Origin: Cordylochernes scorpioides
Lineage: Eukaryota > Arthropoda > Arachnida > Pseudoscorpiones > Chernetidae
Length of the DNA: 64,000 nucleotides
Reading direction: 5' to 3'
Assembly (NCBI GenBank): GCA_030710605.1
Contig: CP092864.1
Location: forward strand, 137,083,255-137,147,254
A program made the position numbers and the translations under genes. Of the stretch, positions 863 through 59,705 are shown one piece after another. Within the stretch, counting starts at the first letter, position 1. Each line of letters begins with the position of its first letter. Under the pieces are notes generated by a model, which searched no databases, was not told the origin of the DNA, and saw nothing but the letters and a program-made list of their open reading frames with translations.

Positions 863-2490
863 CCAATATCTTAATCAATTCTTGAAATTTTCAAAAATAA
901 TTGTCATTTTCACCATTTTAAGTAAACGCCCCAATTCAAAATATTCTTGTCACTATCACGATATTGCACTTTTAAAAGAATCATTTTTTACTACCATAAT
1001 CAACGATTTAAAAAATATATTCAAATTTTAAATATAAATTAACATAGGTGAAACGCATTTTTTTAAATTGCAAAAATCGAAAGATACAATATCTTCAAAA
1101 ACACCACTAGGGAAACAACTATCTTTCCCAAAACAAGTTAAAAATAAAAATCCAATCAACTACCACGCCAGTAGCTAAATTAAGTCACAGCCTTCCCAAA
1201 CTATTACAATCGTTAAATTTCAACATAGCTACACTCCCTCGTACCTTCCTTTTACTTGCATATTTAATCAACCATACATCTCTCTCCACAAACGTTACAA
1301 CATTCCCACACATCACTATCTCCAATTGGCGACAATTATTAGTGCGCGATTTCACAAACAAATACAATTTCGAGCCCCACGAGCTCTATATCGTCACCAC
1401 AATAAAAATATTTTCACATTAAACGTACCATATCCACTAACAATTTAAAAATTATCGATACATTTTCGTACAACCACCACCCATGACTAGTAAATTTGTT
1501 ATTCATGGTGAAACAGGTTAGATTCTGTACAAAACAACGACTTCACGTGACACCTTTTCATTCACAGTTTTTCACTTCGTGTCACAGCGCCACACCACAA
1601 AACTTTTTCACTTTTCAGGCCAAATACGCCTTCACGCCTGTGACACATCTCACCCCAAAGCGTGTCCACGTCGAAAGTCGCACTTTCACTCACATCTAAA
1701 CCTGAAATCACTGAATAACATTTTTACTAAGTCCAAACTAACTTCGATACACAACCACTTACGAACACCGAGAAAAATATCTTTAAAATAGACCATAAAA
1801 TTGCCAACCTCGATAAAAGAAGAGAGAGAAAGTCAGTTTCAAGTAAATGACTAAAATAACAAACACCCCGACAATTTCAGTGAAAAACAGGAGGAGTGAC
1901 CCCCAGTAATAGGATTCCCCGAATCTATTTCAGTTACAATGCCCCGTTCTCCCTCCCTCACAAAGCTATCATCTTGACCGCTATTTTCATGATAGCCATT
2001 TTTTTAAACACATGTTTCACACTAATCATTTAGATTTCCTCGAGAATCTCACAAACTACTTAACCACACCACACATATCAAACATTTTACATGTTAATGG
2101 GGATCACAATACATAACATATTAGTAACCAATCCAACCAATAAATTGCGCTTCTGAAATTTCTATTTATACAACCGACACAGCGCATCACAATTTATTAT
2201 TGGTACAATACCATTAATTTTACATTCATATTTCACTGTGCTTCTTTAAAACCCAGCGTCTAAACAATTTCTATTATTCAACCACTAGAAAAAATGTACA
2301 GCTGCCAAACAGTTGTATGTCGCAATTATGCGATCACCAACGTGACCTCATTATTTATAAAAACTTTACAAAATCACTAATTAAAACAACTTGATTGAGT
2401 CTGATCTAGACTTTATAATGCGAAAGAGAAATCGTTCTCTACATATCACCTTTTTGTTTAACGAGAATATTGTTCAATTTTACACTATCG
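863..2490. other. No recognisable gene
   Basis: AT-rich sequence with short chance reading frames only. The C/A-rich stretch around 1500-1720 has no coding pattern I can defend, and I see no repeat shared with the rest of the window. Confidence 0.5.
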
Positions 2491-2565
2491 AAAAGATAGC
2501 GGTTGCCTGGCCGGCATTCATATTTATATAAAAATAGACACTTCGGCCAGTTGGAGTTTTTTATT

Positions 2566-2608
2566 TTCTCAACGTTTCAACAAAAATCTTTTGTCTTCGT
2601 CAGGAGAA
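2566..2608 (-). ncRNA. Hammerhead-like ribozyme motif, family A
   Basis: On the minus strand: stem I TTCTC, box CTGACGA, stem II of about 7 bp (GACAAAA with TTTTGTT), GAAA, palindromic ACGT as minimal stem III, triplet GTT, then closing stem I GAGAA. Stem III has no loop, so cleavage would need a dimer, as known for short-stem-III animal hammerheads. Confidence 0.65.
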
Positions 2609-3172
2609 GTAAATAAAAATAAACATTTGGCAAGGCGTTAAAAATTGTTCTGAGGTTTGCAAGGGCGTTCTCACGTGATTCTTCGAATTTAGTACAACAT
2701 CTAAAGCGCGAGTCAAAAACAAATATTAAACTCGTCAAAGACTATGATCTTGGAAATAAAAATATATAATAATAAAATTATAACAAATTAAGTAAAAATA
2801 AATAAATAAAGTAATATAATAATAATCACAAAGATTATTATATAGATTTATAACTATTATGTTCAATTTTTTATCTAGCTTATTAACTACTTTTTAAATT
2901 TAAAAATGAAGCATATTGTTGCGGAATATCTTCAAAAGTATTTATAGTTCTTTTCCCAAATTCTCGTGATACCCATCCCTCTAAAAATAATCTTTCCTTT
3001 TTAAATTTTATATTCCTATGAAATATCTCAATATCATAGTCTTTGACGAGTTTAATATTTGTTTTTGACTCGCGCTTTAGATGTTGTACTAAATTCGAAG
3101 AATCACGTGAGAACGCCCTTGCAAACCTCAGAACAATTTTTAACGCCTTGCCAAATGTTTATTTTTATTTAC

Positions 3173-3215
3173 TTCTCCTGACGAAGACAAAAGATTTTTG
3201 TTGAAACGTTGAGAA
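3173..3215 (+). ncRNA. Hammerhead-like ribozyme motif, family A
   Basis: Mirror-image partner of the motif at 2566-2608 with the same boxes: TTCTC, CTGACGA, stem II, GAAA, ACGT, GTT triplet, GAGAA. It forms a convergent pair within the large inverted repeat. Confidence 0.65.
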
Positions 3216-3259
3216 AATAAAAAACTCCAACTGGCCGAAGTGTCTATTTTTATATAAAT

Positions 3260-4439
3260 TTTACACTACTTAACATTTATCTAATCATTATAATAATCTT
3301 TAATTATATTCTAATTTTTGTATAAAATCTTGAATAATTATTTTTATTTTTACCTTTCAATTATATATTCAAATTTTTGATCCAACCTGATTTAAAAAAA
3401 ATACTTTAATCAAATTTACTTTTATTTTTCATGATATTATTTTAGTATTGCAAAACTTTTAATTGTTTCAAAAATAATTTTTAATTCATTATTATATCTT
3501 TTATAAATTACATGTTTGATTTTGTCCACTTACACTTTTTTTACCCGCAATCATATTTCTATCTTTTTATTCACTATATTTTATATTTGTTTAAATAGCT
3601 TTATTATATGACATTGTTTATCATCAACTATCGAGCATACAACAATCGTTTTCAACAATCATATTCTTTAACCAATTCCCTATACTTTATTATTACTATC
3701 TTTTTCAGCCATTACTTACTTCATTGTAGAAAAACGACAGCACTGCTTGGCATTTTTTTTTATTTCGTAATTTTAACAAACTCTTTGAACACAGTTCCCC
3801 AGATTTAAAAATCCCAACTTCTGGCCTGAACACGCTTCAAGAGTTAATTTCAATCATCCGCAGAGCACAATCACCAACGCATGCACAAAGCGTTCACTTT
3901 TTTCAACTTTCAACACTTTTTTATCAGCTCTAGCGGACCACAATCAACCTTTGATTTCATGTCAAGTCAGATCACATACTGTCGCTACAATTCTACTTAT
4001 CGCATGGCTCTACCACCCCTTTCAATCATATAAATAAGCAACTTTTCTTCAACAACTTTTAACCCAATAATCCTAAAATTGTGACAAAGCACTGTATATA
4101 GGATCGCAAGTGAAACATTGCCAAGGAAAGGGCTCAAGTCTATATTCTCGCTTTGCACCTGGATCTGATTATTTGGTTGCATGTGTAATGCTTACAATTG
4201 CATATTCTTCAACTACTAACCCTTTCCAACGCCCACCAATATTCTCAACAACCCCATATTGTATATAACTTATAACAAGATTTTCATGTTGTATAATAGA
4301 AACACATCTGTAAATGATTATACGCATGATTGACATGTGTCATTACGTCACCATATGTAATGTACTTTTTACAAACTGAGGATAAATAAATAAAACTCTG
4401 TAATAGATTAAGAGTTGAGCTGAAGCAAGATATAGAAGT
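3260..4439. other. No recognisable gene
   Basis: AT-rich DNA. Several short frames exist but none has a domain, a start context or a neighbour that would support it. Confidence 0.5.
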
Positions 4440-5029
4440 CAGAAACGTCTAAAATCGAGATAGATGGAAGTCACAAAACAACATCTAAAGATAGATTGGA
4501 AACTGTCAGGACGGCGCCAGTTTAGAATTTCACCAAACGATCCACACTCTTCGCATTTGCTGTAATGCAATACTTCTTTTCTCAGAAATGATATACAAGG
4601 CCCCCGTCTTAGCTAAAAATACAGTCAGTTCACCATCTGCGTGAGCCCTCGTCGGTTGTACCCCAGGTCCACCTCATCCACCATGTAGACCAGTAAGAAC
4701 TCTTCCATCTCCATCTTTCGCTCCTAGCTCAACTTTTATCTGTTCACGGAACTTTCTTTGTGCAACTGTGTTTTCGTTTTTTGTGTATGGACATTCCCAA
4801 GCTTTCCACTCTGCCTCGACCACGACTGCCTGTACTTTGTGAGAACTGTAAAAGGTCTTCCAAGGTGCAGAGAGGTACTGAAAAACTCCACATCCTGACT
4901 ATTCCTCTCGGTCAACACAGTTTAGCGAGAGTTGACAGGGACTCACACCACAGTTTAAGTCGACTGGATACCTCATCACATTTTTAGTCGACAGGATTCT
5001 ACAAGAGGCAACAGGACTTCATATTACAT
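4440..5029. other. Unclassified stretch of higher GC content
   Basis: Base composition is less AT-rich than the flanks, and the reading frames resemble decayed LINE sequence, but I cannot identify a domain. It precedes a LINE 3' end in the same orientation. Confidence 0.35.
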
Positions 5030-8070: not shown

Positions 8071-8354
8071 TATAACCTATTCAGATGCGGGTTTAACTAG
8101 AGCCTAGCGAATTCTAACTATGGTAGAATTTAAGTTCCCTCTGTAGAACTTAAAGATTTTAGTCAAATGGTTGCGTGAAACATAATACTAACTCTATTTT
8201 TGAAAATTCCATAAGATTTTCTCTAAAAAGTATATTGAATGGTCTACTTACTTATTTACAACATCAAATTAATAACATAAAGAAGAACAACAAACTTACA
8301 TATTTACCATTAGATAATAAAAGGCATATATTGGATTTAATAAAATATTTATTT

Positions 8355-8397
8355 TGCCAATATTTCGGCTGGCTGAACGCCAACATTTATCGAGGCA
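8355..8397 (-). ncRNA. Hammerhead-like motif, family C
   Basis: Minus strand: stem I TGCC, box TCGATAA, stem II with GTTCA loop and GCCAGC on its 3' side, GAAA, ATAT, then GGCA closing stem I. Compared with the canonical box, C3 is U and G8 is A, so the core pair would be U-A. Confidence 0.45.
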
Positions 8398-8486: not shown

Positions 8487-8527
8487 TTGTGATAAAGGTT
8501 GGCGTTCAGCCAGCCGAAATATTGGCA
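8487..8527 (+). ncRNA. Hammerhead-like motif, family C (stem I lost)
   Basis: Partner of the motif at 8355: TGATAAAGGTTGGC, GTTCA loop, GCCAGCC, GAAATATT. Upstream TTTG cannot pair with GGCA, so this copy is probably inactive. Confidence 0.35.
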
Positions 8528-8626
8528 AAATAAATATTTTATTAAATCCAATATATGCCTTTTATTATCTAATGAATTAAGTATGGATTGCTCATTTTAA
8601 AAAATATTTACCATTGTAATCTTGAC

Positions 8627-9795: not shown

Positions 9796-9952
9796 CTGAT
9801 TTACGAATGTTGCTTTTTGGGCAACATTTTCTGTTTTACCGGTGCTGACGTTTTTGCTTCATCTGATTTACTGTTCGTAAAGTTAGAGGTTGCCTGGCCG
9901 GCATTCATATTTCTTCAAATAAAAGACACTTCGGCCAGTAAATCTTTTTTTT

Positions 9953-10000
9953 TTGTCTCGACGTTTCGACAAAAAGCTTTTGTCCTCGTCAGGAGAAAAT
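9953..10000 (-). ncRNA. Hammerhead-like ribozyme motif, family A'
   Basis: Minus strand: CTC, CTGACGA, GGACAAAAG/CTTTTTGTC stem II, GAAA, ACGT, canonical GTC triplet, GAG. Box, GAAA and triplet all match the hammerhead consensus. Confidence 0.7.
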
Positions 10001-10010
10001 TAATTTTTGT

Positions 10011-10056
10011 TTGCTCCTGACGAGGACAAAAGCTTTTTGTCGAAACGTCGAGACAA
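10011..10056 (+). ncRNA. Hammerhead-like ribozyme motif, family A'
   Basis: Mirror copy of 9953-10000: TTGCTC, CTGACGA, stem II, GAAACGTC, GAGACAA. Stem I is CTC/GAG plus TTG/CAA with one bulged A. Confidence 0.7.
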
Positions 10057-11704
10057 TAAAAAGATTTACTGGCCGAAGTGTCTTTTATTTGATTTACTGT
10101 TGTTGCTATTTGGCTTCATTTGATATGCCTATGTTGTTATTTTGCTTCATTTGTTTTATTTGTGTTGTCGTTTTGGCTTTATCTGATTTGACGTTGTTGT
10201 TTTTTGGGCTCATCTGTTTTACTGGTTTGCTGTTTTGGCTTTATCTGATTTATTGTTGTTATTTGGCTTCATTTGTTTTACTGGTGCTGCTGTTTTGGCT
10301 TCATCTGATTTACTCATGTTGTTATTTGGCTTCGTTTGTTTTACTGGTTCTGCAGTTTTGGCTACATCTGATTTACCGTTGTTGTTATTTGGCTTCATTT
10401 GTTTTACTGGTTATGCAGTTTTGGCTTTATCTGAATTACTGTTGTTGTTATTTGGCTTCGTTTGTTTTACTGGTTCTGCAGTTTTGGCTTCATCTGAATT
10501 ACTGTTGGTGTTATTTGGCTTAATTTGTTTTTACTGGTTATGCAGTTTTGGCTTCATCTGAATTACCGTTGTTGTTATTTGGCTTCATTTGTTTTACTGG
10601 CTCTGCAGTTTTGCCTTCGTTTGATTTAATGTTGTTTTTATTTGGCTTCATTTGTTTTACTGGTTCTGCAGTTTTAGCTTCATCTGATTTACTGTTGTTG
10701 TTATTTGACTTAATTTGTTTTTACTGGTTCTGCAGTTTTGGCTTCATCTGATTCACTGTTGTTTTTATTTGGCTTCATTTGTTTTACTGGTTCTGCAGTT
10801 TTAGCTACATCTGATTTACTGTTGTTGTTATTTGGCTTAATTTGTTTTTACTGGTTCTGCAGTTTTGGCTTCATCTGATTTACCGTTGTTGTTATTTGGC
10901 TTCATTTGATTTACTGTTGTTTTTATTTGGCTTCATTTGTTTTACTGGTTCTGCAGTTTTGGCTTCATTTGATTTACTGTTGTTGTTATTTGGCTTCATT
11001 TGTTTTACTGGTTCTGCAGTTTTGGCTTAATCTGATTTACTGTTGTTATTTGGCTTCATTTGTTTTACTGGTTCTGCAGTTTTGGCTTCATTTGATTTAC
11101 TGTTGTTGTTATTTGGCTTCATTTGTTTTACTGGTTCTGCAGTTTTGGCTTCATTTGATTTACTGTTGTTGTTATTTGGCTTCATTTGTTTTACTGATTC
11201 TGCAGTTTTTGCTTCATTTGATTTACTGTTGTTGTTATTTGCTTAATTTGTTTTTACTGGTTCTGCAGTTTTGGCTTAATCTGAATTACTGTTGTCGTTT
11301 TGGCTTCATTTGATATGCCTCTGTTGTTATTTGGCTTCATTTGTTTTATTGGTGTTGTCGTTTTGGCTTCATTTGATATGCCTCTGTTGTTATTTGTTTT
11401 ATTGGTGTTGTCGTTTTGGCTTCATCTGAGTTACATGTGCTGCATCTCTTAGCTTCATTTGATTTACTTCTGCTGTTTTTGGGCTTCATTTGTTTCACCC
11501 TTTCTTGGTGTTTAAGCCTGATATACTTTGTTTTTGCTGTTTTTTTACTTCATCTGTTTTACTGTTTTTGCGAAATTTGGCTTTGTGTGTTTTACCTTTT
11601 GATATATTGTAAAGTAAAATGTTAGAAGGGCCTGTATCATCAGTGATAAACTTTCACAGTTTTTAATCAACCAAACCGATTTTAAGAGATTTTTACTAAT
11701 GTAT

Positions 11705-14436: not shown

Positions 14437-15171
14437 CAATGGGTGAACTTTCAAGCGAAAAAAAGTTATTTGACTGTCTTTTTAACGATAAAAAGAAACA
14501 AAAGAAAGATTCTATATGTGCTGTTTGAGAAAATATCCTCAAGAATCTTAGACAAAGAGGTTAGCATTCACAATTTATCAATAGACATAGTTTTAAACCC
14601 TCCCAACAAAGAATAACTAATGTACATCATAGAAACATCCTTCCTTATTCAGAAAGTAATGAGAAGATTTCACATTTTCTACGCAGACGAGGAATCCAAA
14701 CATATATCAGTAACCATCAATCCATTGTGGACAACTTCTTAGAAATCTTATAAATAAATCTGATAAACAGTTAAAACCCAATCTTCAAACCAATGCAGTT
14801 TACTCGATCCAATGCCAAGACTGCAATGCTACCTACATAGGTGAAACAGGAAGATCAATACAAATTACACTGAATGAACACAACAGAAATATCAGAACTA
14901 AAGACTCCATGATCTATCAACATATTGCTCAGACCGGTCATCAGTTCAACATAACAGAAACCAAATGCCACTACAAGAATATTAAGAAGAAATATCAACG
15001 GTTATTTTTAGAATCTCTCATTTCTAATGGATCGGCGTGGAACTGTGGAGTGTTCAAGAAAACTTTGTCTGGAAGAGGACTCTCTCAAGGTGGGGAAACA
15101 TTCCTTTCTGAAGAATTTGTACACATACACAACTATTATGAAAAAGGCATCTCCTTATCGTGCAACTGAAA
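14437..15171 (+). pseudogene. Penelope-like element C-terminus: GIY-YIG endonuclease
   Basis: The last ~145 codons (from about 14735, stop at 15169) are open and show the PLE endonuclease pattern: AVYSIQCQDCNATYIGETGR contains the GIY-like YSI, a C-x2-C pair, the YIG motif and the catalytic-type arginine. ITLNEHN, IYQHIAQTGHQF and QRLFLESLIS follow, in the order usual for the family. Upstream, in another frame, EKISHFLRRRGI resembles the linker between reverse transcriptase and endonuclease, so at least one frameshift lies near 14730. The reverse transcriptase itself is missing. In intact PLEs this enzyme nicks target DNA for target-primed reverse transcription. Confidence 0.8.
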
Positions 15172-15395
15172 GTTGCTGATGGCTTGCGCCATCTATCGGA
15201 ATAAATATCAACTATTCTCGTTGATTTTTAATTATTCCAGAATTGGCCAAATACACATTCTTGATTAATCAAGAAAAGCTAACCACGGACGCGTTTTTGA
15301 AAATCAACGAGAATAGTTTATATTTATTCCGATAGATGACGCAAGCCATCAGAAACTTTCTGTTGCACGATAAGGAGATGCCTTTTTCATAATTT
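15155..15395. repeat. Hairpin after the PLE endonuclease
   Basis: About 85-bp arms (15155-15240 and 15296-15390) pair through GATGGCTTGCGCCATCTATC and its inverted counterpart. The centre holds a broken family B hammerhead-like motif (CCACGGACGCGTTTTTGAAAA): the box is lost. The same arm sequence follows the motif at 63635. Confidence 0.7.
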
Positions 15396-16622: not shown

Positions 16623-16663
16623 GCCAATATTCAAATAGGCTATAAGCCTAACTTCGTCAGGGC
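16623..16663 (-). ncRNA. Hammerhead-like motif, family C
   Basis: Minus strand: GCC, intact CTGACGA, strong stem II (TAGGCT/AGCCTA), GAAT in place of GAAA, ATATT, GGC. It links family C to the canonical box. Confidence 0.45.
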
Positions 16664-18960: not shown

Positions 18961-20107
18961 GCGTCTTGGATGTTAGCGGAGAAGAACTTAAATTGACAGT
19001 CTATCGTCTTATCTGAGATATCTGGGAGACTATGCAAGCTTCTGTAAGAAATATGAATATTTGTATATCATTAGGGAATATACACACATACAGATTTATT
19101 AAGACCACACGTCTTATACAGATTCACCACAGGAAGAAAGGAAGCATAGATAGAGCTCCTATACTCCAGGTAGCGTAGCACCCAACACCAGCCTCCAGGT
19201 CCGACATATGTTCAGTGACCAAACCGTGTCAAGGTTAGCGTATCATTAAACAGGCTAGTGTGGAATCAACCGCGTTCTAGTCTTCGCTTTCCTCATCCAA
19301 ATGGACCACGACATTCAGCGATTCTATTAGTCTCCTCTGAACGGTGACTCATTAAGGAATATAATTAATAATATAAGGTATATAATATAATAAGGAATTT
19401 AAAAAAAGTTATATACAAAAATACAGTGAAACCTCTAATAAGCGACCTATCTGGTGATCTACCCTCTATCAGAATGACCACTTTGGTGAAATCAAAACTG
19501 ATTAGCCCTGATTTAATACCACCTCTAAGAAACGACCATCTTCGTAAAGACCAGGAATGTCTATGCTTCTTGTTTGAACCATTATGGATGGGTTTTCCTT
19601 TTTAAGATCTTAAAGATACTGTATCAATGATTCGTTCTTCTTTGTCTTTTCTGATCTTTTATCTTCCTGACTTTATTTAATCCTACTTATCATCGATTAA
19701 TCTTAATCCATTAAGATCCATTGATTAGAACTTCTTGGAATTCTTTCATTCCGACATCGCTTATCTTCTGTTCTATAATACGTAAAAAGGATTTATTTCT
19801 TTTTTAAAACAATGGATTCTTCTTGGGGGCATTTAGGTGGCTTTTATATGAAGATAGTGTTAAGGGAGACTTAGAAAGAAGCAATCTTATCAGTTCTTCT
19901 TTGAACTAATTGAAGTTTATGGAAAATTCTTAATCATTATAGAACGTTTGATAATTTTTAAATAAATTTTATGTTTTTATTTTGATACATATTATGGCGA
20001 AGAAATAATTTATATTTTATTATTTAATTATTCAATGAAAATACTCAACAGATTATATATTACTATTTTTTGAAAATAAAGCATTCCGTAAATAATTCTT
20101 TAATTAA
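18961..20107. other. No recognisable gene; one MITE-like end
   Basis: At 19424 ACAGTGAAACCTCTAATAAG resembles a Tc1/mariner MITE terminus, but I found no matching opposite end. The rest is AT-rich and featureless. Confidence 0.4.
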
Positions 20108-20142
20108 AAAGGCCTATATTGGATAAAAAATATCATTTATTT

Positions 20143-20185
20143 TACCAATATTTCAGTTGGCTGAACGCCAACCTTTATCAAGGTA
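20143..20185 (-). ncRNA. Hammerhead-like motif, family C (U3-A8)
   Basis: Minus strand: TACC, TTGATAA, stem II GTTGGC/GCCAAC with GTTCA loop, GAAA, ATAT, GGTA. Stem I TACC/GGTA replaces TGCC/GGCA of the 8.4-kb copy on both sides. Confidence 0.5.
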
Positions 20186-20284
20186 CTATAACATTTTATT
20201 GTGTGTCTCACATTATAATTGTAGCAAAGTATTTATTTGAAATGAAGGCGATAAAAACGTGGTGATTTTCTTTTAATGGTAAAA

Positions 20285-20320
20285 AACAAGCTTTCAGGCA
20301 AGAATGCCCTTCTTCAGGTT
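20285..20320 (-). ncRNA. Hammerhead-like motif, family D
   Basis: Minus strand: AAC, CTGAAGA, stem II AGG(G)CA/TGCCT, GAAA, AGCT, GTT. Stem I AAC/GTT differs from CTC/GAG of other family D copies yet still pairs. Confidence 0.5.
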
Positions 20321-20611
20321 ACAACTTGGCAATATTTTAAAACTATGGACATGAAAGATAGCCAAATACAGTAGGTAAATAGTTCAGCTGGGGGGATTGG
20401 CGAGGTAAAACACGGAGTATTGGGGTATTTATTATTTTACACTAGTATTAACAGAGTATCATTTTTTATGTTTATATTTTACTACTCTGTAAACTTCCCT
20501 CATTTCTTATCTTTTGTTTATCCTTCATAGTTGGTTCTTGCCTTAAATAAATTTCTATCTCATCCTGAAGTTTTTGTCTTCCCTAATTTTCCACGTGGCA
20601 ATATGTTATAA

Positions 20612-20654
20612 TACCTTGATAAAAGTTGGCGTTCAGCCAACTGAAATATTGGTA
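20612..20654 (+). ncRNA. Hammerhead-like motif, family C (U3-A8)
   Basis: Partner of 20143-20185: TACC, TTGATAA, stem II, GAAATATT, GGTA. Confidence 0.5.
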
Positions 20655-20864
20655 AAATAAATGATATTTTGATCCAATATATGCCATTTTAGTTAAAGAT
20701 ATATTACTTTGTATTTGTAAAATCATCATATATGTTGCCTAGCTTGCTTGTTCAATATTCTCTAGCTGTAGATAGTTTGGTTGACAATTGTCGACTGGTC
20801 GTACTGACGTCATCAATAAATACTTTGACATCTTAAGATATTCCAAGACTTGATTTCTACGCTA

Positions 20865-39554: not shown

Positions 39555-39985
39555 GTTTAATGAAGATAAATAAACTCATCTCCAGAAACCTGTAGCATTT
39601 GTTTGATAGCTATCTTAGTATTTATATAAGGTCTCAGTTCTCTTCCACTAGCGCTAGCTCTCCGTCATTATTGACATCTACAGTCGACGGTAGTTACAAC
39701 CAAACATCTACCCAATCACCACATCTATAAACTCTCCAACAAGCTGATGCTAACTTCCAACCATCGTAAAAACAAAGGCAAACAACCCGGACATGGATAA
39801 ACGACAAAGCCATGTTCTTTACATTAGTCTCAACTTTTTTTTTTATCTTCCCTTTACTCAATAACTTCTCTAAATCTCACACGATCCGCATTCCTTTCAG
39901 CTAAAACATATGTTTAAATATCATTTATATCACTTTTCAAAGTACTAACTGCAATTCTCAACTTGCAATCCCAAAATACATTATT

Positions 39986-40840
39986 GACTGTATTAACTCA
40001 TCCATTGATGAGCTCTACTCATACCCATCAGACACCATCAACAAGCTTTACAAGCTTGATACCCTAATATGATTGAGTGGAGATAAGAAAGAAGAAGACG
40101 ACATCATTGACTGTATTGACTCATCCATTGATGAGCTCTACTCATACCCATCAGACACCATCAACAAGCTTTACAAGCTTGATACCCTAATATGATTGAG
40201 TGGAGATAAGAAAGAAGAAGACGACATCATTGACTGTATTGACTCATCCATTGATGAGCTCTACTCATACCCATCAGACACCATCAACAAGCTTTACAAG
40301 CTTGATACCCTAATATGATTGAGTGGAGATAAGAAAGAAGAAGACGACATCATTGACTGTATTAACTCATCCATTGATGAGCTCTACTCATACCCATCAG
40401 ACACCATCAACAAGCTTTACAAGCTTGATACCCTAATATGATTGAGTGGAGATAAGAAAGAAGAAGACGACATCATTGACTGTATTGACTCATCCATTGA
40501 TAAGCTCTACTCATCCTCAGCAGACACCATCAACAAGCTTTACAGGCTTTATACCCTGATATGATTGAGTGGAGATAAGAAAGAAGAAGACGACATCATT
40601 GACTGTATTGACTCATCCATTGATAAGCTCTACTCATCCCCAGCAGACACCATTAACAAGCTTTACAAGCTTGATACCCTGATATGATTGAATGAAGATA
40701 AGAAAGAAGAAGAAGACATCATTGACTGTATTGACTCATCCATTGATAAGCTCTACTCATCCCCAGCAGACACCATTAACAAGCTTTACAAGCTTGATAC
40801 CTTGATATGATTAAGTGGAGATAAGAAAGAACAAAAATAC
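39986..40840 (+). repeat. 123-bp tandem array (about 7 units)
   Basis: Units start GACTGTATTGACTCATCC at 39986, 40109, 40232, 40355, 40478, 40601 and 40724, exactly 123 bp apart. The unit is recognisable as a piece of PLE 3' sequence: AAGCTTGATACCCTAATATG also occurs at 14384, and inverted at 15690. The three later units share GATAAGCTCTACTCATCC variants. A frame reading SSIDELYSYPSDTINKLYK has one TGA per unit, so it is not coding. Confidence 0.9.
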
Positions 40841-46339: not shown

Positions 46340-48120
46340 ACAGGAAGGTCAAAGACCGCGTGAGGTCATCATAAACAGTGCACGCTATTGGCTGTTAGTT
46401 CTGATCGTAACGATGATATCTATCTGAATTTGTACATCATTGGTTGTTGTTATCGTTTATCATTGTAAACATTGAAAGTCATTGGTTAATAACGGTGATC
46501 GCTTGGGTGATGTCATTGTAAACATTGTATTCCATTGGCTGATAGAAATGATCAGATCGATAATGTGATTGTTAACATTGTATGTTATTGGTTGCTAGCA
46601 GTGATTCCATTGATTATGTCATTGTAAACATAGTATGTTATTGGTTGCTAGCAGTGATTCCATTGATGATGATATTGTAAACATTGTACGTTATTGGTTG
46701 CTAGCTATGATTCTATTAGTGATGTAATTGTAAACATTGTATGTTATTGGTTGCTATCAGTGATTCCATTGATGATGTTATTGTCAACATTGTACGTTAT
46801 TGGTTGCTATCTATGATTCCATTGATGATGTTATTATAAACATTGAACGTTATTTGTTGCTAGCTATGATTCCATTAGTGATGTTATTGTAAACATTGTA
46901 TGTTATTGATTGCTAGCTATGATTCCATTAGTGATGTTATTGTAAACATTGTACGTTATTGGCTGCTAGCTATGATTCTATTAGTGATGTTATTGTAAAC
47001 ATTGTATTTTATTGGTTGCTAGCTATTATTCCATTGATGATGTTATTGTAAACATTGTACGTTATTGGTTGCTAAAAGTGATTCCATTGATGATGTCACT
47101 GTAAACATTGTATGTTTTTGGCTGCTAGCAATGATTCCATTGATGATGTCATTGTAAACATTGTATGTTATTGGTTGCTAGCAGTGATTCCATTGATTAT
47201 GTCATTGTAAATGTTGTAGGTTATTGGTTACTAGCAATGATTCCATTGATGTCATTGTAAACATTGTATGTTATTGGTTGCTAGCAGTGATTCCATTGAT
47301 GATGATATTATAAACATTGTACGTTATTGGTTGCTAGCTATGATTCTATTAGTGATGTAATTGTAAACATTGTATGTTATTGGTTGCTATCAGTGATTCC
47401 ATTGATGATGTTATTGTCAACATTGTACGTTATTGGTTGCTATCTATGATTCCATTGATGATGTTATTATAAACATTGAACGTTATTTGTTGCTAGCTAT
47501 GATTCCATTAGTGATGTTATTGTAAACATTGTATGTTATTGATTGCTAGCTATGATTCCATTAGTGATGTTATTGTAAACATTGTACGTTATTGGTTGCT
47601 AGCTATGATTCTATTAGTGATGTTATTGTAAACATTGTATTTTATTGGTTGCTAGCTATTATTCCATTGATGATGTTATTGTAAACATTGTACGTTATTG
47701 GTTGCTAAAAGTGATTCCATTGATGATGTCACTGTAAACAGTGTATGTTTTTGGCTGCTAGCAATGATTCCATTGATGATGTCATTGTAAACATTGTATG
47801 TTATTGGTTGCTAGCAGTGATTCCATTGATTATGTCATTGTAAGTGTTGTAGGTTATTGGTTACTAGCAATGATTCCATTGATGTCATTGTAAACATTGT
47901 ATGTTATTGGTTGCTAGCAGTGATTCCATTGATGATGATATTGTAAACATTGTACGTTATTGGTTGCTAGCTATGATTCTATTAGTGATGTAATTGTAAA
48001 CATTGTATGTTATTGGTTGCTAGCTATGATTCCATTGATGATGTTATTATAAACATTGAACGTTATTGGTTGCTAGCTATGATTCCATTAGTGATGTTAT
48101 TGTAAACATTGTACGTTATA
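46340..48120. repeat. 53-bp satellite with 633-bp higher-order periodicity
   Basis: About 33 units of roughly 53 bp (ATGTTATTGGTTGCTAGCAG TGATTCCATTGATGATGTTA TTGTAAACATTGT). Distinct variants recur in the same order every 633 bp: GATGATGATATT appears at 46668, 47301 and 47934. This gives a 12-unit higher-order repeat, 2.3 copies long. The first units (46340-46560) are diverged. Each unit has ATTGG, an inverted CCAAT box. Confidence 0.9.
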
Positions 48121-53738: not shown

Positions 53739-53926
53739 TATATTTATATCCATATATTGGCATTTTGTATTGAATAAAATGTTTTGCTTTTTTTTTTAAT
53801 CCAAAATATGCCTTTTAATTAAAAATTTCATATGGATTGCTCTATATTCAAGATATATCTAAATATGAAAAAAACAATAGAAAAAAAAAAAAACGGTCAG
53901 GTGTTGATATTAAAAATAAGAAAGGC

Positions 53927-59269: not shown

Positions 59270-59705
59270 CTTATGGATGTTCTCTTCTGGATTGATGTCT
59301 GCCATATAGAGGGCTGCAAGAATGGCCAGGTATATATAGTCCGGAGTGAGTTGGGTGTTGTGACAGTTATTGCAGTTCCTGTAGGATCTAGTCATGTCTG
59401 GGGTTATCTTCATTCCTTTAAAATGTCCTCTTCTGGATTGATGTCCGCCATATAGAGGACTGCAAGGATGGCCAGGTATATATGGTCCGGAGTGAGTTAG
59501 GTGTTATGACAGTTATTGCAGTTCCTGTAGGATCTAGTCATGTCTGGGGTTATCTTCATTCCTTTAAAATGTCCTCTTCTGGATTGATGTCCGCCATATA
59601 GAGGACTGCAAGGATGGCCAGGTATATATGGTCCGGAGTGAGTTGGGTATTGTGACAGTTATTGCAGTTCCTGTAGGATCTAGTCATGTCTGGGTTTATC
59701 ACCCG
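59270..59705 (-). repeat. 146-bp tandem triplication of a LINE C-terminus
   Basis: Copies start at 59285, 59431 and 59577 (TTCTGGATTGATGTC), exactly 146 bp apart. On the minus strand each reads CNNCHNTQLTPDHI, a LINE C-terminal zinc knuckle, then MADINPEEDI and a stop. 146 is not divisible by three. Confidence 0.85.

Follow-up and report, generated by a model that had tools for sequence, protein, structure and literature searches.

Minimal hammerhead-like motifs with a U3-A8 core at the ends of a probable Penelope-like element family of Cordylochernes scorpioides

The motifs of family C in a 64,000-nucleotide stretch of the Cordylochernes scorpioides genome (contig CP092864.1; hereafter the window) are very probably minimal type I hammerheads within the pseudo-LTRs of a family of Penelope-like elements (PLEs), for which self-cleavage is predicted from sequence. 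The core consensus of hammerheads comprises a CUGANGA box, a GAAA and pairing of positions 3 and 8. Family C motifs mostly lack the strict CUGANGA box (C3, U4 and G8); they are placed among hammerheads by their architecture, and their catalysis is a prediction only. The U3-A8 pair that replaces C3-G8 is known to work elsewhere. Thus, the finding is real but is mostly a further example of a published swap: the ends of this PLE family are minimal and hammerhead-like, of the dimer type, and carry an already-known core variant. A first-pass annotation of this DNA had offered two readings, a diverged ribozyme class or a structured RNA of PLE ends. The second is upheld, as a hammerhead architecture with U3-A8 in place of C3-G8 is found at PLE-type ends, whereas a separate class is not supported, both minimal PLE hammerheads and U3-A8 cores having been published. 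A swap of the core pair across a family of more than 70,000 genomic places constitutes a natural test of the ribozyme activity that a Penelope-like element needs.

Two C1 motifs with the U3-A8 core, located by reading the sequence and by motif scan, form an inverted pair at positions 20143–20185 (minus strand, left arm) and 20612–20654 (plus strand, right arm) of the window. Both follow the order TACC, TTGATAA, stem II, GAAA, TATT and GGTA, and they lie in pseudo-LTR arms delimited by nhmmer at 20098–20205 (minus) and 20592–20698 (plus). The C2b motif at 8355–8397 (minus), also in a left arm, closes stem I with TGCC/GGCA, and its box, TCGATAA, contains U3 and A8 plus a change of U4 to C. The C3 motif at 16623–16663 (minus) has GCC/GGC in stem I and a CTGACGA box with C3-G8, and carries GAAT instead of the GAAA of the other copies. 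The first-pass annotation had listed these four copies with the same stem I closures. It had also placed U3-A8 in the 20-kb copies; their TTGATAA box is confirmed, but the pair is not restricted to them, as it is also present in the 8355 copy. A fifth family C copy in the window (8490–8571, plus) is the truncated inverted partner of the 8355 arm. In this copy, ATTT faces GGCA in stem I and the box is GTGATAA; the 5′ strand of stem I and position 3 are thus mismatched, and both stem I and the 3/8 pair are gone. A partial C3 arm at 53754–53823 (plus) is devoid of the 5′ half of the motif. Family C motifs contain one additional A between the box and stem II, and this extra A after A9 also occurs in two other families of the genome, A and D.

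For a wider comparison, 148 cores were aligned from the window, 20 fetched 10-kb loci and 80 tail-sampled stretches of 370 bases; removal of six rows of one duplicated block (L009, L012 and L013) left 142. The 10-kb loci were picked by a family 28-mer and are, hence, a non-random sample that holds family C copies, while the tail-sampled stretches, from the first 9 Mb of the contig labelled C1, were chosen regardless of the motif. The box is TTGATAA in 88 of the 142 cores, TCGATAA in 19 and CTGACGA in 2. Positions 3 and 8 are U-A in 130 of 141 cores, C-G in 2, U-G in 1, C-A in 1 and in other states in 7, and stem I pair 2/42 is A-T in 89 of 141, G-C in 31 and otherwise in 21. The three inner pairs of stem I are paired in 88–93% of the 142 cores and those of stem II in 90–100%; the fourth, outermost stem I pair (1/43) is paired in 54.8% of 126. 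A35-T38 is found in 133/142 cores and a T at position 39 in 138/142.

The motif, therefore, has the three-way junction of a hammerhead, with stems I and II in the conserved order. Positions 3 and 8 pair, U3-A8 being accepted as a natural variant in PMC3088659, and GAAA is present with A15.1-U16.1 and H17, although window copy 16623 has GAAT. Stem III is palindromic, ATAT in family C, as in dimer-type motifs, and a 4-nt palindrome in this region is expected if two copies pair as a double hammerhead. Minimum free energy folds of C1, C2a and C2b arms yield stems I and II. An alternative hairpin, ACCTT-GATA-AAGGT, was rejected: it reaches −10.4 kcal/mol (with a shortened stem II) compared to −14.3 kcal/mol for stems I and II in C1, and its T6-A11 pair is absent in the 20 cores with C6, its other pairs being retained in 88–97%.

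The family 28-mer, GTTGGCGTTCAGCCAACTGAAATATTGG, occurs with up to 3 mismatches at 71,634 places (35,842 + 35,792) in the 2.62-Gb source genome of 24 contigs, compared to 0 for the reversed control. A 23-mer from the tail of the element (see below), TATGGATTGCTCTATTTTCAAAA, has 17,508 exact genomic places, with 0 for its control. A descriptor that requires a palindromic stem III and leaves positions 3, 4, 7 and 8 free gave 66 hits in the window and the 20 loci, versus a mean of 2.4 and a maximum of 5 in 40 dinucleotide shuffles; eight or nine of these hits look like chance. The genome count with its zero control and the excess over shuffles rule out a chance origin of the motifs. As the 20 loci were preselected for family C, the window itself and the genome-wide count are the fairer evidence in this respect. 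Rfam returned no hammerhead match for the window copies of family C up to E = 10, and its HH9 model scored 22.6 and 21.4 bits on family B, against a cut-off of 52. An exact search in viral contigs gave 0 hits.

Family C is accompanied in this DNA by other hammerhead-like families, in which the fold is the same but carries C3-G8. A scan without the palindrome condition recovered families A, B and C and a motif at 20285 in the window, with GAAACGTT, GAAACGCGTT, GAAATATT and GAAAGCTT in these four families; the palindrome is ACGT, AGCT or ACGCGT in the window families other than C. Among the 66 descriptor hits, family A has CTGACGA with ACGT; family B has CTGACGA, TTGACGA or CTGATGA with ACGCGT; family D has CTGAAGA or CTGATGA with mostly ACGT; the 20285–20320 copy has CTGAAGA with AGCT; and family C has mostly TTGATAA with ATAT. 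Positions 3 and 8 of the hits are U-A in 33, C-G in 22, U-G in 3 and other in 8. The descriptor imposed stems I, II and III, so that their pairing in the hits is not independent evidence. The 3/8 pair was no search condition, and it is paired in all 18 hand-picked representatives (17 of the 66 hits and L043), which was reached in 13 of 5000 re-dealings, although with several representatives per family the 18 are not independent. The first pair of stem II gave no signal in these 18 (1908 of 5000 re-dealings).

Family C divides into subfamilies C1 (A-T in stem I), C2 (G-C, with U4C added in C2b) and C3 (CTGACGA), the last represented by two good copies (L043 and window 16623) and a weak one (L023). 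A tree of the 142 arms was computed from an alignment from which the stem I columns and positions 3 and 8 had been removed. On this tree, whose bootstrap had not settled and most of whose forks are unresolved, the A-T/G-C state of stem I pair 2/42 changes twice and the U-A/C-G state of 3/8 once. One branch, with support of 100/98, splits off 36 rows, namely 29 of the 31 G-C rows and 7 rows in neither state. With so few changes, the apparent covariation goes back to a small number of old splits between subfamilies and not to compensation that recurred. That the double changes show recurrent compensation is, thus, not supported, and the ancestral subfamily split that the first-pass annotation had itself named as the refuting explanation largely accounts for them. 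Compensation inside subfamilies was rejected as well, since the 21 other states of pair 2/42 include no new double Watson-Crick change. The lesson for method is that, among repeat copies, double changes count as tree events, not as sequences.

Comparisons between subfamilies also bear on the fold. Majority arms of C1 and C2a differ at 5 of 43 motif columns versus 22 of 67 columns outside the motif, and those of C1 and C3 at 12 of 43 versus 23 of 67. Between C1 and C3, both members of pairs 2/42, 5/10 (positions 3/8) and 16/28 are replaced with pairing kept, while pair 14/30 becomes U.U; the remaining four changes (1, 9, 22 and 23) are at free positions. G5, A6, A9, G12, A13, A14, A15.1 and U16.1 are unchanged in both comparisons. 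The 8 changed paired columns between C1 and C3 make up 4 full pairs (P = 0.001 when C3 is represented by the majority of its three rows; slid registers give 0–1), and the same test with L043 alone as C3 gives P = 0.015. These whole-pair changes favor a constraint on folding, with few C3 copies behind them. Selection on folding, as proposed in the first-pass annotation, thus receives moderate support from this comparison, not from repeated compensation.

Relatives of the motif have been described. PLEs carry minimal type I hammerheads, usually without helix III and possibly cutting as dimers (PMC6155905, PMC7761336). Family C resembles these (Cervera & De la Pena 2014; Lunse, Weinberg & Breaker 2017) in its pseudo-LTR location, a missing or minimal stem III with a palindrome suited to dimers, the G5/A6/A9/GAAA core and inverted one-tail pLTR pairs as in PMC3846280. 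It differs from them in the U-A at 3/8, U4C in one branch and the extra A after A9. Perreault et al. 2011 (PMC3088659) report that several natural hammerheads show covariation of C3-G8 to U3-A8, that ribozymes with covarying 3/8 nucleotides had proved active in vitro and that a U4C variant has activity sufficient for viroid infectivity. The compensated change in family C is identical, but here U3-A8 is the common state and resides in a retrotransposon with more than 70,000 places; the word Penelope is absent from the main text of PMC3088659. Metazoan retrozymes (PMC7229834) are likewise non-autonomous animal elements with type I hammerheads, for which mobilization by PLEs has been suggested. 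However, they are tandem direct repeats with canonical hammerheads, whereas family C consists mostly of inverted pairs or single arms with a minimal stem III.

The anatomy of the elements was derived with an nhmmer profile from the four window copies, which gave 66 hits in the window and the 20 10-kb loci. The arms are ∼110 nt long, and 46 of the 59 hits scoring at least 40 form minus/plus inverted pairs, the other 13 being single. With 36 pairs called in the 80 tail-sampled stretches and 21 from the window and 10-kb loci, 57 inverted pairs were compared. The gap between the arms is 0–130 nt in 45 of them, negative (overlapping arms) in 9 and larger in 3. The outer end of the arm is almost fixed, near CCAATATATGCCTTTTTAATTAAA, and inner ends differ between copies. 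One arm extends ∼30 nt further, to ATGGATTGCTCTATTTTCAAAA. Exactly one such tail is present in 49 of the 57 pairs (the 36 from tail-sampled stretches having one by construction), two in 1 and none in 3, with 4 unjudgeable; two of the three tail-less pairs, both in L015, show a right tail in another tail test. A looser test (5 errors) found two tails in 6 of 23 pairs, and the second tails read as chance matches, the extra matches being poor. At least 8 nt are common to both flanks in 37 of 56 elements, compared to a mean of 7.5 with re-dealt flanks, and exactly 12 nt in 14 of 56. In the 20-kb pair, the core of the tail is on the left arm only (20072–20089, ACGGAATGCTTTATTTTC on the minus strand), and candidate target-site duplications, ATATATTACT, are located at 20055–20064 and 20699–20708. 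The 8-kb insertion has a candidate duplication, ATATTTACCATT, at 8300–8311 and 8604–8615.

As described in PMC3846280, rotifer PLE inserts have inverted pseudo-LTRs, an optional 31-bp tail on one inverted pLTR, and target duplications of 8–10 bp in some copies and none in others. The inverted arms, single tail and short target duplications of family C thus match the published PLE pseudo-LTR layout. The 386-nt spacer of the 20-kb pair (20206–20591) contains a motif of another family with the canonical core CTGAAGA and GAAAGCTT (20285–20320, minus). The outer flanking repeat suggests that the pair is one insertion, and the spacer motif may represent a template-jump chimera or a nested insertion. 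A GIY-YIG endonuclease fragment at 14714–15169 of the window (Pfam, 17.9 bits, under the 22.6 cut-off) is followed by inverted arms at 15135–15231 and 15297–15393; a search of solved structures with this fragment gave 0 matches. Its tblastn matches fall in 2 of the 20 10-kb loci (L019 and L023), and this GIY-YIG search yielded neither a complete C element nor a family C copy with a reverse transcriptase. The L023 frame, with a GIY-YIG domain of 24.4 bits versus the 22.6 cut-off, is not arranged as a component of a C element.

We propose a mechanism in which the element protein would cut both strands of an AT-rich target and RNA copying would begin at either of two sites located downstream of the motif; this would leave the arms in inverted orientation, with a tail on one of them. 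Cleavage by the hammerhead, after AUAUU, would occur once two copies come together, or with the help of the element protein. The founders of C1 and C2 would have carried the pair-preserving U3-A8 for C3-G8; in one C2 branch, U4C is present as well. For the anole PLE, PMC11167929 describes reverse transcription from two internal sites, cutting and extension of both target strands, and a tail equal to the stretch between the two start sites. In the same source, cleavage by the anole hammerhead under the assay used required the element protein, and C3G/G8C double mutants partly restored the hammerhead; hammerhead mutants were without effect on insertion, and none of the RNA-seq reads terminated at the cleavage site.

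Among the 80 tail-sampled copies, 49 have a tailed arm that extends at least to the start of the box. In 10 others the arm begins inside the motif but still upstream of the cleavage point (L087, at the least, being an alignment artefact), in 11 it begins downstream of that point, and in 10 it is undetected. Since an arm that runs through the predicted cleavage site implies a template uncut at the motif, 49 of the 80 insertions, and up to 59, derive from uncut templates, in line with what was seen in vitro for the anole element. Arm ends were also examined for a peak at the predicted site, such as cleavage in vivo would leave: arms that start within 2 nt of the site account for 5 of 179 hits at four loci (L048 with both arms, L051, L075 and L085, the last with a poor alignment), and a cluster of arm ends at −5 is artefactual, being produced by the inverted outer end of the arm itself. 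It is conceivable, although we give the idea little weight, that the U3-A8 core of C1 and C2 (with U4C too in one branch) is a tuned-down, protein- or dimer-dependent ribozyme whose weak cutting spares RNA for insertion and thereby contributed to the spread of this PLE lineage to more than 70,000 places in the genome.

The uncut templates also bear on whether the motif is a hammerhead relic, in which catalysis was lost before the expansion of C1 and C2 and the stems are kept by descent. A relic could explain the departures from CUGANGA (U3, A8, and U4C in C2b), the 49 of 80 arms copied from uncut templates and the decay of single copies, of which the 21 of 141 informative cores with neither A-T nor G-C at pair 2/42 are an expression. 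However, motif columns differ less than those outside between C1 and C2a (5/43 versus 22/67), the residues from G5 to U16.1 listed above are without change, C1–C3 changes come as whole pairs, and U3-A8 cores of other hammerheads are active in vitro in the account of PMC3088659. We consider a relic possible but, with perhaps a minority of the weight, not the expected explanation.

It appears rather unlikely that the fold is retained as a signal through which the PLE protein binds or primes, with cleavage incidental. Such a signal would be compatible with family C arms that extend across the cleavage site and with the anole PLE, whose hammerhead needed the protein for cutting and whose hammerhead mutants spared insertion. 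Against it, PMC11167929 reports that the anole ribozyme, which is cut at +26, begins upstream of the ORF, yet RNA from ORF +20, lacking the box and most of the ribozyme, is still active; it also cites its authors' earlier work on self-cleavage of a PLE hammerhead at 3–25 mM Mg2+. Moreover, the catalytic residues conserved across the families here would be unnecessary for mere binding. Finally, DNA transposons with terminal inverted repeats (foldback or MITE type), whose ends fold by accident, would produce short inverted pairs, target duplications and very high copy numbers, but this highly improbable origin is rejected because family C elements do not have two equivalent ends with an interior constant or deleted from a parent, and their tail, usually at one end only, together with variable inner and nearly fixed outer ends, fits target-primed copying, not cut and paste.

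Several further features were observed in the same DNA. A family A insertion of PLE type at 2488–3260 has 231-nt arms that are 100% complementary, a flanking repeat, TTACACTA, and a left tail, and it looks recent. Rfam matches to MIR7504 and MIR1919 at 9926–10081 and 15157–15371, with low E-values but below gathering, are located on inverted repeats and probably reflect inverted PLE ends, not microRNA genes. In L009, a 1286-residue open frame (903–4763, minus strand) occupies the spacer of a family C inverted pair; in our own reading, made without a family search, it resembles a Ty3-type polyprotein. Another family C element (L016, 5050–5430), with flanks ACATTATTGACT, sits within sequence resembling the 123-bp tandem repeat of the window (39978–40831). 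Additional tandem arrays in the window have units of 53 bp (46462–48119, ∼31 copies), 63 bp (10109–11396) and 146 bp (59277–59700).
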